Positions 1,510 through 7,247 of a DNA stretch of 64,000 nucleotides are shown one piece after another. Under the pieces are notes generated by a model. It saw only the letters and a program-made list of their open reading frames with translations, was not told the origin of the DNA and did no database searches. Numbering within the stretch: position 1 is the stretch's first letter; every line of letters begins with the position of its first letter. The stretch is from Oscillospiraceae bacterium (GTDB taxonomy: Bacteria; Bacillota; Clostridia; Oscillospirales; Acutalibacteraceae): contig SVPG01000011.1 in assembly GCA_015065975.1 (NCBI GenBank), positions 1-64,000 of the forward strand, written 5' to 3'. A program made the position numbers and the translations under genes.

Positions 1510-2340
1510 TTATTTCATAAGACAATATAATATTACAGCCTGTTGAATCTCCAGTAAATATTTCTTGAAGTCATAGCCGACAAAGTACTTTGATGCGATA
1601 ACCTCATCGGACACCTCTTCACCGCGGAAAAACGGCGGGCACGGGTTGAGCAGCGCTCCGTCATTTGCCTTATCCATAACCCGCGATGTTATCCGATAAT
1701 TTTCAAAATCGGCAAGGATTGCGGACGGCAGAGAGTCGGTACAGATAATATCTTTTCCGCGGACAGCTTCGTCGATATCATAATAAACCTTGACGCCGTC
1801 CATCTCATACCCGCTCGGGCAGCACTGCGAAAAATCAAAGCCCATCGCCTGAGAGGCTTCCTTCCAGGCAAGTCCGATATTTCCCCTTCTTCCGCAGAAC
1901 AAATATTTATCCTTTGTGAAATCCGACCTGCGCTTTGAAAGAGAATACATATCGGCGAGCATTTCGCACGGATGGTTTTCATCGGTCATGGCGTTGATAA
2001 CCGGCACGGCAGAATATTTCGCCATCTCTTCGATAAGCTTTATGTCGCGGTGCCTTACTATTACAACGTCTGCCCAGTTGTTGAGATATCCGCAGACATC
2101 TTCAAGGCTTTCCTTCTTATCCAGAGTCTCTGTCGGGAAAAGGATCGGCTGACCGCCAAGCAGATAAATCCCCTTCTCGAATGTGACCCTTGTCCTTATA
2201 CTTGTATTCGGAAAAAACATAACTGCGCTCTTTCCTTTGAGCGCAGTACCAAGTTCTCCCTCTCTCAGCCGATCGGCCAATTTAAAAATTTCAAAAATCT
2301 CACTCTGCTTAAAATCCGTAAGCCTGATAAGATCGTTCAT
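1510..2340 (-). CDS. Aspartate/ornithine carbamoyltransferase superfamily protein
   Basis: 276 residues, short for the family (about 305-335). The carbamoyl-phosphate-binding half is clear: NTSIRTRVTFE near residue 45 (family STRTR) and ENHPCEMLAD near residue 121 (family HPxQxLxD). In the second half the usual HCLP (ornithine) or HPLP (aspartate) motif reads NPCP, followed by FRGEEVSDEVI. Family members transfer a carbamoyl group from carbamoyl phosphate to an amine. HPC and GEEV lean to the ornithine branch, but the changed loop makes the amine substrate uncertain. It is the fourth gene of a leftward operon, 3 bp after the HAD gene, with no arginine or pyrimidine genes nearby. Confidence 0.75.
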   Translation of the reverse strand: MNDLIRLTDFKQSEIFEIFKLADRLREGELGTALKGKSAVMFFPNTSIRTRVTFEKGIYLLGGQPILFPTETLDKKESLEDVCGYLNNWADVVIVRHRDIKLIEEMAKYSAVPVINAMTDENHPCEMLADMYSLSKRRSDFTKDKYLFCGRRGNIGLAWKEASQAMGFDFSQCCPSGYEMDGVKVYYDIDEAVRGKDIICTDSLPSAILADFENYRITSRVMDKANDGALLNPCPPFFRGEEVSDEVIASKYFVGYDFKKYLLEIQQAVILYCLMK

Positions 2341-2343
2341 TTT

Positions 2344-3126
2344 CTAATCCCTTCCCAATCCTGACTCGCGCAGGAAAACCGCAATCGCATCGTGGTCATT
2401 GTCACCTATCACACAGTCCGCAATCTCCTTGACCGCATCGATCGCATTGCCCATGGCAACTCCGACACCGCACAACCTGAGCATTCCTATATCAGCATAG
2501 TCATCTCCAAACGCAATTATGTCGTCGGCTGTAATCCCGCACTCTTCACACATATGCAAAATCGCATTCTCTTTTGTGGCTGTTTTCTTTGTAAACTTGT
2601 ACCAGTAACCGTCCGAGAAGCGGACACAATCACACTCGGACAGCTCTTTACTCAACTGCTGCGCCACTTTTTCATCAAATATTTCAACACACATCTTCAG
2701 CGATGCATGCCTGAAATCACGAAAATCCGTGTAGATGCTGTCCCCCCAGCTTTTATCCTGCTGTTTCGGGTCTGTTTTGTAATTCCAGTAATGCTCGTCT
2801 GCTGTATCAATTGTGATTTCGCAGTCTTCACCGCAGACCTCTCTCGCCCGTTTTATCATATCGGACGTTTCTTCCTCGGTGAACTCAGCTTTATATATAT
2901 ATGTATCCTTATATTTTACCAAAGCTCCGCCGCTTGAAATCACTATATCGGGGTTCAGCTCCGATATGAATTCCATTGAATTCTTTTCACTTCTGGACGT
3001 GGATACTCCGATCATCATTCCACATCTTGCGCAGTTTTCCAGCTCGCAAACCGTAGGCTGTGAAATTGTTTTATCGCTCTGAAGCAGCGTTCCGTCCAGA
3101 TCGAACAACAACAGCTTGCACTTCAT
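2344..3126 (-). CDS. HAD superfamily hydrolase, Cof type
   Basis: 260 residues. HAD motifs appear in order: LLLFDLDGTLL near residue 5 (nucleophile Asp and acid/base Asp), STSRS near residue 42 (motif II), TKENAI near residue 182 (motif III Lys) and FGDDYADIGML near residue 203 (metal-binding acids). The inserted cap between motifs II and III is the Cof/IIB type, typical of sugar-phosphate and flavin-phosphate phosphatases. Substrate cannot be read from sequence. It lies 6 bp after the peptidase gene and 3 bp before the carbamoyltransferase gene, so the genes are probably co-translated. Confidence 0.85.
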   Translation of the reverse strand: MKCKLLLFDLDGTLLQSDKTISQPTVCELENCARCGMMIGVSTSRSEKNSMEFISELNPDIVISSGGALVKYKDTYIYKAEFTEEETSDMIKRAREVCGEDCEITIDTADEHYWNYKTDPKQQDKSWGDSIYTDFRDFRHASLKMCVEIFDEKVAQQLSKELSECDCVRFSDGYWYKFTKKTATKENAILHMCEECGITADDIIAFGDDYADIGMLRLCGVGVAMGNAIDAVKEIADCVIGDNDHDAIAVFLRESGLGRD

Positions 3127-3132
3127 ACCATT

Positions 3133-3879
3133 TTACCCCTCTTCAATGCAGTAGCTGCAAGGTTCATAGCCGCTGTCCTCGCACTGTTCAAGCGTCAGTC
3201 CCGTTACCACCTTGCCCTTTATATACGAGCAATTTTCACGGTGGTATTTTTTGCCGTGGATCGTGACAAAATACTGTGCATCGTCCGCAAGATAAATATT
3301 CGGTTCATTTATACTGTCCGTCTGTGCCGTCGTCACTCTCTCGGGATCCGCTGCGCTCACCGCAGTATCCCCGTTTCCCGATATTCCAAGCGCTACCGCC
3401 GATCCGACAGCTGCGACCGCAAGCACCGCCGCAGCAGCGAGCAGCAGCTTTTTATTGCGGATTGCAAATTTGCTCATCTTTGAGCTTACGCTGCCAACGG
3501 TAAGATAATGGGCAAACTCAGCAGCCGATCGTTCGCACATAATATCCGATCGGTCTTTACCTTTATGGTACGGGTCGCAGAGAATATGCCCCTGCTCATG
3601 GGCGAGCAGGACAAGCCGTTCACTGTCCGAAAGATTCTCCTCAACAAAAACCACGCGGATATTATTATCGTGGTAGTAGAACGCCCGCACCGTGCGTGAA
3701 AAATCTTTCAGCCCGATTGAGGTGAGAAGTGTCTCCACATCGGGCTGATTTGATATCCTGCTGTATTCGACTACTGTGTAGCCTTGTTTTTCGAGAGCCT
3801 TTACGACAGACGATGCCGTAACATCGCCCATCGAATATTCCCTTATATAATCAAGGGCAAGCTTATGTTCAATCCTCAT
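3133..3879 (-). CDS. ImmA/IrrE-type metallopeptidase with membrane segment and C-terminal Cys/His module
   Basis: 248 residues from an ATG at 3879. An in-frame TTG at 3888 is also possible. The N-terminal half is an M78 (ImmA/IrrE) domain with the zinc motif HEQGH in LLAHEQGHIL. One transmembrane helix, rich in Ala and Val, follows at about residues 142-165. The C-terminal tail has HGKKYHRENCSYIKG and, 20 residues later, CSYC, a pattern resembling the Cys-rich metal-binding domain of Ada proteins. M78 peptidases usually cleave an HTH repressor encoded next door, and here the upstream overlapping gene is such a regulator. A peptidase-TM-metal-module order suggests the outer or membrane-proximal module senses a signal. 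Confidence 0.8.
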   Translation of the reverse strand: MRIEHKLALDYIREYSMGDVTASSVVKALEKQGYTVVEYSRISNQPDVETLLTSIGLKDFSRTVRAFYYHDNNIRVVFVEENLSDSERLVLLAHEQGHILCDPYHKGKDRSDIMCERSAAEFAHYLTVGSVSSKMSKFAIRNKKLLLAAAAVLAVAAVGSAVALGISGNGDTAVSAADPERVTTAQTDSINEPNIYLADDAQYFVTIHGKKYHRENCSYIKGKVVTGLTLEQCEDSGYEPCSYCIEEG

Positions 3880-4318
3880 CTTTATCAAGTCCGTTATTCG
3901 CTCTGAGCTTTCTCAGCGCGTTGATCGCAGCTGCCTGATCTTCCACATCGACCACCGTGGTCTCAACTGCGGAACCGTAAGCCGCTGCATTTCCGAAAAT
4001 CGACTGTCCGCCGCATCTCATAAGTTCAAGCTGAAGCATCGTATCGATCGCATGTTTGCCCTTCTCGTCAAGAGCAACATATCCTTCAAGGATGGTTCGC
4101 GCATCCCTGTCAAGATACAGAGGCGGATCGCTCAATACAGTCTTGATGCCGAGAACCTCGCATATACTGACCACGGTATCGAATGATGTTCCTCCGATAC
4201 CTTTATTCAGCGCGCTTATAAGAGTTGATGGCGGAATTTCCATCTCGATTGCAAATTTTCTGACACTTTTGTACTGTCTCTTGATTTCGCTTCTTATAAG
4301 TTGAGTCAATGCATCCAA
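3869..4318 (-). CDS. XRE-like HTH regulator, probable partner of the ImmA-type peptidase
   Basis: 149 residues from a TTG start with AGGTGA 7 nt upstream. Residues 1-60 are a lambda-repressor-like helix-turn-helix (KSVRKFAIEMEIPPSTLISA, then GGTSFDTVVSICEVLGI). The tail is Ala-rich and charged. The stop overlaps the peptidase start by 11 nt. XRE plus M78 pairs control stress responses and mobile elements, with the peptidase removing the repressor. The sequence is related to the small regulator at 4418-4735 (both carry SFDTV after the recognition helix and end helix 5 with the LxI pattern). Confidence 0.75.
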   Translation of the reverse strand: MDALTQLIRSEIKRQYKSVRKFAIEMEIPPSTLISALNKGIGGTSFDTVVSICEVLGIKTVLSDPPLYLDRDARTILEGYVALDEKGKHAIDTMLQLELMRCGGQSIFGNAAAYGSAVETTVVDVEDQAAAINALRKLRANNGLDKDED

Positions 4319-4340: not shown

Positions 4341-4369
4341 ATTTTATCATGAGAGGTGTAAAAAGTCAA
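4341..4369 (-). promoter_or_regulatory. Sigma-A-type promoter of the XRE/ImmA operon
   Basis: On the minus strand: TTGACT (4369-4364), 17-nt spacer, TAAAAT (4346-4341), 22 nt ahead of the TTG start. It should drive the four-gene leftward operon down to the carbamoyltransferase. Confidence 0.7.
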
Positions 4370-4417: not shown

Positions 4418-4735
4418 TCAGTCATTGCCTGCCGGCACACGTCTTTCTTTCTCTACATACTCAACCATCTTGTCTCTTCCCTGCCCATCAAGCAGGCTCA
4501 GTCCGTCTGCCACTCTTCCGACCTCTTCATCGGGCAGAACAAAAACATCATCGCGGTATACTATATCAAGTGCCGAAAGTATTTTTATTACGGTATCAAA
4601 ACTCATTGACCCGATCCCGTTTTTAAGTGCTGTGCTTATCGTTGACTGAGGGACTCCGATGTGCCTGCAGAAATTGCTTACAGTTCCAAATTTTACATTG
4701 ATTGCATCACGTATCTCGTTCGACAAATCGTTCAC
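4418..4735 (-). CDS. Small XRE-like HTH protein, paralogue of the next regulator
   Basis: 105 residues from a GTG start with AGGTGAT just upstream. The HTH covers about residues 14-55 (GTVSNFCRHIGVPQSTISTA, then GIGSMSFDTVIKILSALDI). The rest is an acidic helix (LPDEEVGRVADGLSLLDGQG). The motif order and the GxxSFDTV signature match the regulator at 3869-4318, so the two look like a tandem duplication. This copy lacks the long Ala-rich tail. It has its own promoter, so it may act as an antagonist or independent repressor. Confidence 0.75.
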   Translation of the reverse strand: MNDLSNEIRDAINVKFGTVSNFCRHIGVPQSTISTALKNGIGSMSFDTVIKILSALDIVYRDDVFVLPDEEVGRVADGLSLLDGQGRDKMVEYVEKERRVPAGND

Positions 4736-4889: not shown

Positions 4890-4952
4890 TAAATTGTATA
4901 ATTGTTTTATTCTCTTTTTTGATACCGTTATATAAAAAAGGAGGTGTTTGCC

Positions 4953-7247
4953 GTGTCCGAAAAAAGACTTAATATCGGATTTATGGTAAACTGGCTCGAC
5001 AACAATTATATAACCACCATCTGCAAAGGTGCAAATCTCGCTGCGGAGGAAGAGGACGCGAATCTCGTTTTCCTTGCGGGGCGAAATTTCAACGCATCTC
5101 TGCACGACCCCGTGCGCGCTCAATACGAATTTCAGCATAACACCATCTACGCTTTTGCTCATAAGGACACACTCGATGCCCTCATAATACCGCTCGGCGT
5201 TATTGCCGGTCATCTTACGCCGTCTGAGATCGATAAGTTCCTCGAAAGATTCAAAGGGATACCGACCGTCATATGCGAATATGAGCGTGAGGGCTATCCC
5301 TGCGTAACCTTCAATACCGACGGTCTGATCGATGCCATCGATCATCTTGTGTCGGAACACGACTGCAGACGTATCGCTTTTGTCGGCGGTCCGAAGAGCA
5401 AGCCCGACGCCAACACACGTCTTGAGGCATACAAGAAAGCTCTTATCAAAAACGGACTGTGTGTTGATGAGCGGCTCATCACCTACGGCGACTTCTCCGA
5501 ATACTGTACGGATGTCGTCCGCGAGCTTCTCGACCGGAACGACACGCTTCCCGACGCAATATGCTTTGCAAATGACACCATGGCTCTCGGCGCTTATTCC
5601 GTGTTTGAAGAGCGCGGTATAGTGCCCGGCAGAGACATCGCAGTTATCGGATACGACAATGACCAGTTTGCGGGCGTGATGACTCCTCCTCTCACCACCG
5701 TTGACGCAGGTATAATCGACCTCGGCTTCTCCGCTGTCAAGACGGCTGTCAAGCTTGTCAGGACAGGGTCTGCCGAAAATGTTTCGCTCAGCTCCGCTCT
5801 CGCGGTGAGAGCCTCCTGCGGCTGCGGCTGCAGCAAGCTGAGCGATTCCTCCCTGAAAAAAGCCTCCTCTCAGGAGCTTTGCGAGCTTGTATTTTCACAG
5901 CTGACCGAGCTTCGCAGCCTCAACGCGCAGATGCGCCCGATACAGCTTCTCAAGGACTTCATCACCCTATATTTTGACGAGGCTCTCGGAATGAGCAAGA
6001 AGCCGTTTTCACAGCAGCTTATCAAAAACACCTTTGCCGATCTGATTTCGACAAAGATCATGAATCTTCTCCGACGCGATTCGTTCGGAAACATGCTTGA
6101 GACCATGCTGCTTCTCGCCGAAAACCGAATCAAGAATGTCAGCAGAAAGCTTGAGCTTTACCGTCTCAACATCGATCTTCAGTCCACACTCAACGAGTAT
6201 TTCAACGAGCGTCTGTTCAACCTCGAATGTGCCTACGCAAACAGCCAATTCCTCATAAGCAACATCACAAAGGACATGACCTCAAACAGCAAAAATGAGG
6301 AAAAATGCTTCCGCCAGCTCGTTGACAATCTTTCGCGTCTCAATCACGAGAGCACATATATCTATGAATTTGAGCACCCCTACAAAGGGCTTTCTCCTGA
6401 GGATATTTCCAACTGGAAACCGCCTCAGAAGCTTCTTCTCAAAGCATATCACGATCACGAAAAGCTCTGCATTCCCTTTGCGGAACAGCAGCAGATAAAT
6501 TCCGTTGATTTCCTCTGCAACGAATTCACGCCGAATTACAGACGCCGCACAACGGCGTTGACCCTGCTCCTCTTCAACGACGAGCAGTACGGTATCATGC
6601 TCACCGAGCTTGCTCCCGAGCATTTCGGTCAGCTTGCCTCCGTCACCCTGCAGATATGCAGCTCGATCAAAATGACCGATTTCATGCTTATGCTCGAGGG
6701 CATAATAAATCAGATAACTCAGCGCAACGCCATTCTCTCCCACGAATCGGTATCCGATGAGCTTACGGGACTTCTCAACAGGCGCGGCTTCTTCTCCGAA
6801 GCCGAAAAGGTCATATCCAACCGCGCAAACAGCAACACAAAGCTCAGATGCGCCGTCATTTTCGCCGACCTCAACAGCCTGAAGGTCATAAACGACACCT
6901 TCGGTCACGAAGAAGGCGACTATGCGATACGTGCTTCGGCTCAGATACTCAAGGCCTGCATGAGAAGCAGCGATATAATCGGTCGAGTGGGAGGCGACGA
7001 GTTTGCCGCGCTTGCGGTATACAACGATTCCTCCTTCGTCGATCAGCTCTTCAAGCGCATCAAGCAGTTCCAGGACGAGTTCAACGCAAAGAGCAGCAAA
7101 CCTTATTACATCGAGCTCAGCCTCGGCATACACGAGTTTGACTGTTCCGACAACCCGAGCCTGCAGGTGCTTCTCGACCACGCCGACAACAAGCTCTATA
7201 TCGACAAAAAGAGCAAGCGTCAAACCGCTATAAAACCTGTAAACTGA
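4953..7247 (+). CDS. Periplasmic-binding-protein-like sensor fused to a GGDEF diguanylate cyclase
   Basis: 764 residues. GTG 4953 is chosen because AGGAGG (4939-4944) lies 8 nt before it; the in-frame GTG at 4944 overlaps that site. Residues 1-285 match the LacI/RbsB-type ligand-binding fold (NIGFMVNWLDNNYI, VAFVGGPKSKPDA, PDAICFANDTMALGAY, VIGYDNDQFAGVMTPPLTTV) without the DNA-binding headpiece. A Cys cluster RASCGCGCS ends this module. A helical linker follows, then a GGDEF domain with an intact GGDEF at 680-684 and an RSSD inhibitory site at 671-674. There is no membrane helix, so it should bind a cytoplasmic ligand, probably a sugar-like molecule, and make cyclic-di-GMP with product inhibition. 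It is monocistronic. Confidence 0.88.
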   Translation: MSEKRLNIGFMVNWLDNNYITTICKGANLAAEEEDANLVFLAGRNFNASLHDPVRAQYEFQHNTIYAFAHKDTLDALIIPLGVIAGHLTPSEIDKFLERFKGIPTVICEYEREGYPCVTFNTDGLIDAIDHLVSEHDCRRIAFVGGPKSKPDANTRLEAYKKALIKNGLCVDERLITYGDFSEYCTDVVRELLDRNDTLPDAICFANDTMALGAYSVFEERGIVPGRDIAVIGYDNDQFAGVMTPPLTTVDAGIIDLGFSAVKTAVKLVRTGSAENVSLSSALAVRASCGCGCSKLSDSSLKKASSQELCELVFSQLTELRSLNAQMRPIQLLKDFITLYFDEALGMSKKPFSQQLIKNTFADLISTKIMNLLRRDSFGNMLETMLLLAENRIKNVSRKLELYRLNIDLQSTLNEYFNERLFNLECAYANSQFLISNITKDMTSNSKNEEKCFRQLVDNLSRLNHESTYIYEFEHPYKGLSPEDISNWKPPQKLLLKAYHDHEKLCIPFAEQQQINSVDFLCNEFTPNYRRRTTALTLLLFNDEQYGIMLTELAPEHFGQLASVTLQICSSIKMTDFMLMLEGIINQITQRNAILSHESVSDELTGLLNRRGFFSEAEKVISNRANSNTKLRCAVIFADLNSLKVINDTFGHEEGDYAIRASAQILKACMRSSDIIGRVGGDEFAALAVYNDSSFVDQLFKRIKQFQDEFNAKSSKPYYIELSLGIHEFDCSDNPSLQVLLDHADNKLYIDKKSKRQTAIKPVN

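Follow-up and report, generated by a model that had tools for sequence, protein, structure and literature searches.

We find that two overlapping genes in the 64,000-nucleotide stretch of DNA analysed here (the window), from a gut-type bacterium, encode a membrane-tethered M78 peptidase with an Ada-like tail and an adjoining XRE-type regulator, an arrangement that, judged by comparison with related genomes, is real, recurrent and little described, and for which a signalling mechanism is plausible. We give roughly even odds (about 50%) to the reading that the two genes form a signalling module in which a part outside the cell acts through the membrane-held peptidase to inactivate the regulator; domain order, topology signals, conservation, gene pairing and a link between a regulator motif and the peptidase are the sequence-derived observations behind it. 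M78 peptidases that remove XRE-type repressors control mobile elements as well as DNA repair and phage defence, and the signals that those studied answer to come from inside the cell. A membrane-spanning M78 lineage with an exported sensor-like domain, if the reading is true, would let signals from outside exert such control by means of two genes. Dozens of related bacteria carry the same peptidase-regulator pair, which looks like a little-described route from an outside signal to gene control.

Table 1. Features of the locus, in window coordinates.
Feature	Position	Strand	Basis or remark
M78 (ImmA/IrrE-type) metallopeptidase, 248 aa	3133..3879	-	PF06114, alignment, hydropathy, AlphaFold and fold matches
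HEQGH zinc motif, residues 94-98	3586..3600	-	H94, E95 and H98 invariant in 16 aligned homologues
Third-ligand E116	3532-3534	-	Near-invariant in 16 aligned homologues
Single membrane helix, about residues 144-166	3382..3450	-	Hydropathy, charge, model
Predicted external Ada-like module, about residues 202-245	3145..3276	-	Conservation, fold matches, Pfam Ada_Zn_binding
XRE-type regulator, 149 aa, presumed substrate	3869..4318	-	ORF; homologues with HTH_26/HTH_50/HTH_3
AAYG motif, XRE residues 112-115, in C-terminal extension	3974..3985	-	Motif counts
Promoter-like site TTGACT-17-TAAAAT, TG before second hexamer, upstream of XRE gene	4341..4369	-	Aligned with sister species and second family
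Second, shorter XRE-type gene, no C-terminal extension or motif	4418..4735	-	HTH_26 E 4e-4, just under cut-off
HAD-IIB (Cof-type) hydrolase, 6 nt behind peptidase	2344..3126	-	Not conserved as neighbour
Ornithine-carbamoyltransferase-like protein, 3 nt behind HAD gene	1510..2340	-	Below equivalog cut-offs

The peptidase, read here from an ATG (an alternative TTG in the ORF list would start it at 3888 and give 251 aa), has the predicted order of a cytoplasmic catalytic domain, one membrane helix and an external Ada-like tail. PF06114 matches it above the cut-off (E 9.9e-8; 32.3 bits against 22), and this match, the HEQGH motif with E116, and a single hydrophobic segment (KD19 maximum 2.47 at residues 146-164) bear out the original prediction of an M78 peptidase with a membrane helix after the HExxH domain. 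In an AlphaFold model, IrrE/PprI is among the best fold matches of the catalytic part (Z 5.6-5.9), with low model confidence at about residues 100-141, and the helix is placed, again with low confidence, at residues 139-159. Searches of Pfam, NCBIfam, PHROGs and PDB sequences with the whole peptidase returned the M78 part, weak tail matches and nothing else, and by test M78 is the only one of the families compared to which the protein belongs.

Net charge falls from +5 ahead of the helix to -2 behind it, setting the positive side toward the catalytic domain, and the catalytic side likewise carries the higher net positive charge in 37 of the 38 proteins that share the M78-helix-tail order. M78 peptidases had been said to be normally soluble, and tail-less M78 proteins almost always lack such a helix (79 of 80): a helix follows HExxH in one alone, as a borderline segment (1.60), so that tail and helix go together. 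This sample derives from a list of 114 PF06114 matches covering 118 genomes from the class. Eleven of the matches belong to the 38; 90 loci among the remainder were examined and an ORF assignment was possible for 81, including L241, which proved to be a further tail-bearing protein, and L207, whose pattern match resembles an unrelated zinc ribbon and which was counted as tail-less.

The tail itself (YHRENC...GYEPCSYC) follows the pattern H-x3-C...C-x2-C, and its four candidate ligands, H213, C217, C241 and C244, are invariant across 16 aligned homologues, in keeping with the YHRENC...CSYC module expected after the helix. Modelled alone with eight relatives, it reaches a pLDDT of 78.6. With structure prediction, proposed at the outset as a check on the tail, three N-Ada entries were the only Foldseek matches of note, none with a significant E-value. 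No entries other than N-Ada matched, with Z from 3.3 to 4.9, and VIA-align gives Z 4.9 and 2.7 Å over 47 residues for 1u8b; the Pfam Ada_Zn_binding profile (PF02805) matches nine of nine tails, with a best E of 3.5e-5, the window's own scoring 13.8 bits, below the cut-off of 23. The tail spacings agree with those of Ada, whose ligands we take to be Cys38-x3-Cys42 and Cys69-x2-Cys72. The term Ada-like is thus apt for ligand spacing, and apparently for fold, but not for the first ligand, since His213 stands at the place of the methyl-accepting Cys38 and is histidine in every homologue aligned. Because of this replacement, alkylation sensing, one of the functions first suggested for the tail, is unsupported, and we reject it.

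The same four ligands bear on whether helix and tail might serve for anchoring only, fixing to the membrane or to an outside partner a peptidase activated by a cytoplasmic cue, ssDNA or zinc, as in PprI/IrrE. Known relatives do respond to ssDNA (PMC10904395) or zinc (PMC7907104) with no membrane part; pure anchoring, however, needs no ligands, and all four are invariant across a deep lineage in spite of a linker between helix and tail whose length varies greatly among the aligned homologues. We regard anchoring alone as unlikely. The tail might instead be a metal or thiol-redox switch in its own right, with loss or gain of outside zinc setting the peptidase, a view with which the His/Cys pattern and the known activation of IrrE by zinc (PMC7907104) are consistent. 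Yet exported nucleases and other proteins that give no sign of metal sensing commonly bear the module, and zinc sites more often serve a structural purpose, so that such a switch seems rather improbable.

What the tail would bind, if it acts as a receptor, is hinted at by its companions elsewhere. Among 66 ORFs bearing the tail, a helix or signal-like segment precedes it in 61, and the companion domains that Pfam identifies include SNase, Endonuclea_NS_2 and metallo-beta-lactamase domains; since these sit on exported proteins, several of them nucleases, nucleic acid is our first guess at the ligand. The window's own genome holds a second tail-bearing protein (L253 on contig 34, 1350-2288), which has several hydrophobic segments and no peptidase motif.

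A search of other genomes for the peptidase-helix-Cys order, which the original prediction had called for, found it in 38 proteins of related genomes (the window's included), each with HExxH, one helix and an H-x3-C...C-x2-C tail, and the order is therefore no chance arrangement. The relatives were drawn from the window genus and 300 genomes of the family, then from about 390 genomes each of the order and the class, where an alignment of seven served as query and loci were then inspected; a search of the phylum adds two more tail-bearing relatives, and we would place the group carrying the pair in the Clostridia (Bacillota). The catalytic domains of the tail-bearing proteins fit one lineage: across a tree of 37 catalytic domains with the tail and 59 without it, built on few columns, the label changes twice, against 29.6 times in shuffles, which is support for a single tail-bearing lineage rather than proof of it. 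We set aside several independent acquisitions of the tail, a single origin being not rejected (p-AU 0.62), though not demonstrated. At L040 (6648-7490), an M78-like protein without HExxH keeps the helix and the Ada-like tail and has no XRE gene adjoining. We found no description of a membrane-tethered M78 lineage in the literature searched, most subscription journals lying outside its reach.

Around the pair, conservation is selective. With the second XRE gene's own promoter set aside, the best promoter-like site upstream of the gene run is the one in front of the XRE gene, making read-through into the HAD and carbamoyltransferase genes likely at this locus; a search for an operator upstream of the window XRE gene found no inverted repeat. 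Control of these two genes by the pair, as originally supposed, finds no support in conservation: they are co-directional here, with the short gaps given in Table 1, but in the sister species a different gene stands behind the peptidase in the HAD gene's place, and both are absent beside the other homologues inspected, where the neighbours are unrelated. In that species the nearest relative of the HAD protein is encoded elsewhere, at the end of a contig, and contig breaks limit this comparison of neighbours. The sister species does retain, next to the pair, the second XRE gene and a divergent LacI-like/GGDEF gene. The latter (4944-7247) encodes a LacI-type periplasmic-binding-like domain fused to GGDEF, with no HTH matched; the sister species has a 58% identical copy, likewise adjoining the XRE pair, and paralogues occur elsewhere in the genome. 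A similar shorter XRE gene also precedes the pair in L100, as in the sister species.

The pair could also be a regulator along ImmR/ImmA lines, selfish or belonging to a mobile element, that senses nothing in the environment on behalf of its host. Integrase or recombinase signatures occur in the fetched flanks of 8 of 37 homologue loci, and scans of virus contigs returned two loci only, one of them a full-length relative on a predicted provirus; phage and plasmid records gave no match. A pattern scan found no such signature in the 64 kb of the window, and by that scan the window pair does not lie on an integrating element; none was found in the flanks of the window's subgroup either, and the same upstream neighbours are kept in the sister species. 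We think a mobile-element role rather improbable.

The pairing of the peptidase with an overlapping XRE-type gene was rightly located and described from the start, the XRE ORF running 11 nt past the peptidase start in a translational overlap. The window regulator itself has no significant HTH match in Pfam; five of eight aligned close relatives do match, and those recognised share 39-45% identity with it. At 33 of the 38 tail-bearing loci there is a same-strand upstream ORF of 95-300 aa, most of the peptidases lying behind an XRE-type gene. HTH_3 was found in 21 of 36 upstream ORFs scanned, the upstream regulators fall into several sequence groups, and a few homologues (L103, L119 and L124) have no XRE-type gene next door. 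Similarity among the regulators is correlated with that among the catalytic domains (rs 0.46, p 0.0005, 26 non-redundant pairs), species kinship being left in.

In many partner regulators the motif [AVI]A[YF]G occurs some 30 residues before the C-terminal end. Counted strictly in the last 90 residues of mechanically picked upstream ORFs, and in the same data in which it was noticed, the motif is present in 19 of 33 partners, being missing in 14 and so not universal, and in none of the 52 ORFs picked upstream of tail-less M78 genes, a contrast partly inflated because these 52 are not all regulators. By regulator cluster the counts are 9 of 16 against 0 of 27 (Fisher 2e-5), where shuffles expect 0.14. 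Within one regulator family, a motif-bearing extension (here [AVI]A[YF][GS]) marks six of six members beside a peptidase and none of 21 without one, several of the six being in the search alignment and the 21 including close relatives; most of these 21 end just before the extension. Regulators with another HTH type also align to this C-terminal region in the profile of the window regulator, their matches starting at about 71-78 and ending at 142. Such peptidase-linked C-terminal features fit cleavage, and they make the AAYG extension a candidate recognition or cleavage site that would offer a precise target. That the peptidase processes some other protein, the XRE regulator merely controlling its expression, is very unlikely: cleavage of the regulator is a step we infer, and some homologues have no neighbouring regulator, but the translational overlap, the correlated divergence and the peptidase-linked extension speak against it.

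At two loci, L122 (3126-4214) and L135 (3828-4919), a 363-aa protein lies between a short XRE regulator and the peptidase, and its C-terminus resembles the end of that short regulator, AAYGE included. Regulators upstream of tail-less M78 proteins (for example at L191, L193 and L204) have a different C-terminal stretch in common, FAGGE(L/M)S or a close variant, and for soluble M78 peptidases it may serve the equivalent role.

Under the signalling-module reading, the XRE protein would sit on its operator, probably in its own promoter region, while the membrane would hold the peptidase so that the catalytic domain faces the cytoplasm and the Ada-like His/Cys3 zinc-type module lies outside. The state of that module, whether a bound ligand (perhaps nucleic acid) or a metal or redox state, would be relayed along the single helix, a change in dimerisation being the simplest means, and the peptidase would then cut or bind the regulator at the C-terminal extension around AAYG, costing it its function. 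Zinc binding, proteolysis, the direction of signalling, the ligand and the targets are the parts of this scheme that we infer.

M78 relatives are known to cut XRE-type repressors, namely DdrO and CapH (PMC10904395) and ImmR (PMC10233336), and the window peptidase and its partner resemble the ImmA, CapP and PprI systems (PMC10233336, PMC10904395, PMC2701414). The ImmR/ImmA systems of ICEBs1 and TnSmu1 share with the window an XRE-type repressor gene followed by an M78 gene, the peptidase antagonising the repressor (PMC10233336). Those systems belong to mobile elements, whereas the window copy lies on no recognisable one. To our knowledge, ImmA has no membrane helix and no outside module. In IrrE/PprI-DdrO of Deinococcus and CapP-CapH of CBASS, an M78 protein likewise inactivates an XRE-type repressor (PMC10904395); unlike the peptidase proposed here, IrrE/PprI and CapP are switched on by cues within the cell, ssDNA or zinc, and where the window protein has helix and tail, IrrE carries a GAF-like domain. 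With the N-terminal zinc domain of Ada (PF02805) the tail has in common its four-ligand spacing (x3, long loop, x2) and apparently its fold, but it carries His for Cys38, is apparently exported and, in the window, falls below the Pfam cut-off. SNase, EndA-type and ComEC-like exported proteins carry the same module, which in most cases forms the final part of a membrane or exported protein; it is fused there to nucleases or unknown parts and here to an M78 peptidase.

In layout the closest parallel we draw is with BlaR1/BlaI (MecR1/MecI), which combine an outside sensor, a membrane part and a cytoplasmic metallopeptidase that cuts a repressor (PMC9834060). BlaR1 differs in having an M56 peptidase, several helices and a beta-lactam-binding sensor; we claim no homology, and the window peptidase, with one helix and no M56 match in a profile search, is not a member of the BlaR1/MecR1 family. 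A bolder version, in which widespread Bacillota single-helix receptor-proteases sense nucleic acid with an external Ada-related His/Cys3 domain and trigger destruction of the XRE regulator through its AAYG extension, having arrived at a BlaR1-like design independently from ImmA-type parts, is a long shot. Our best reading of the pair, from its sequence features, is as a putative BlaR1-like arrangement made from ImmA-type parts.
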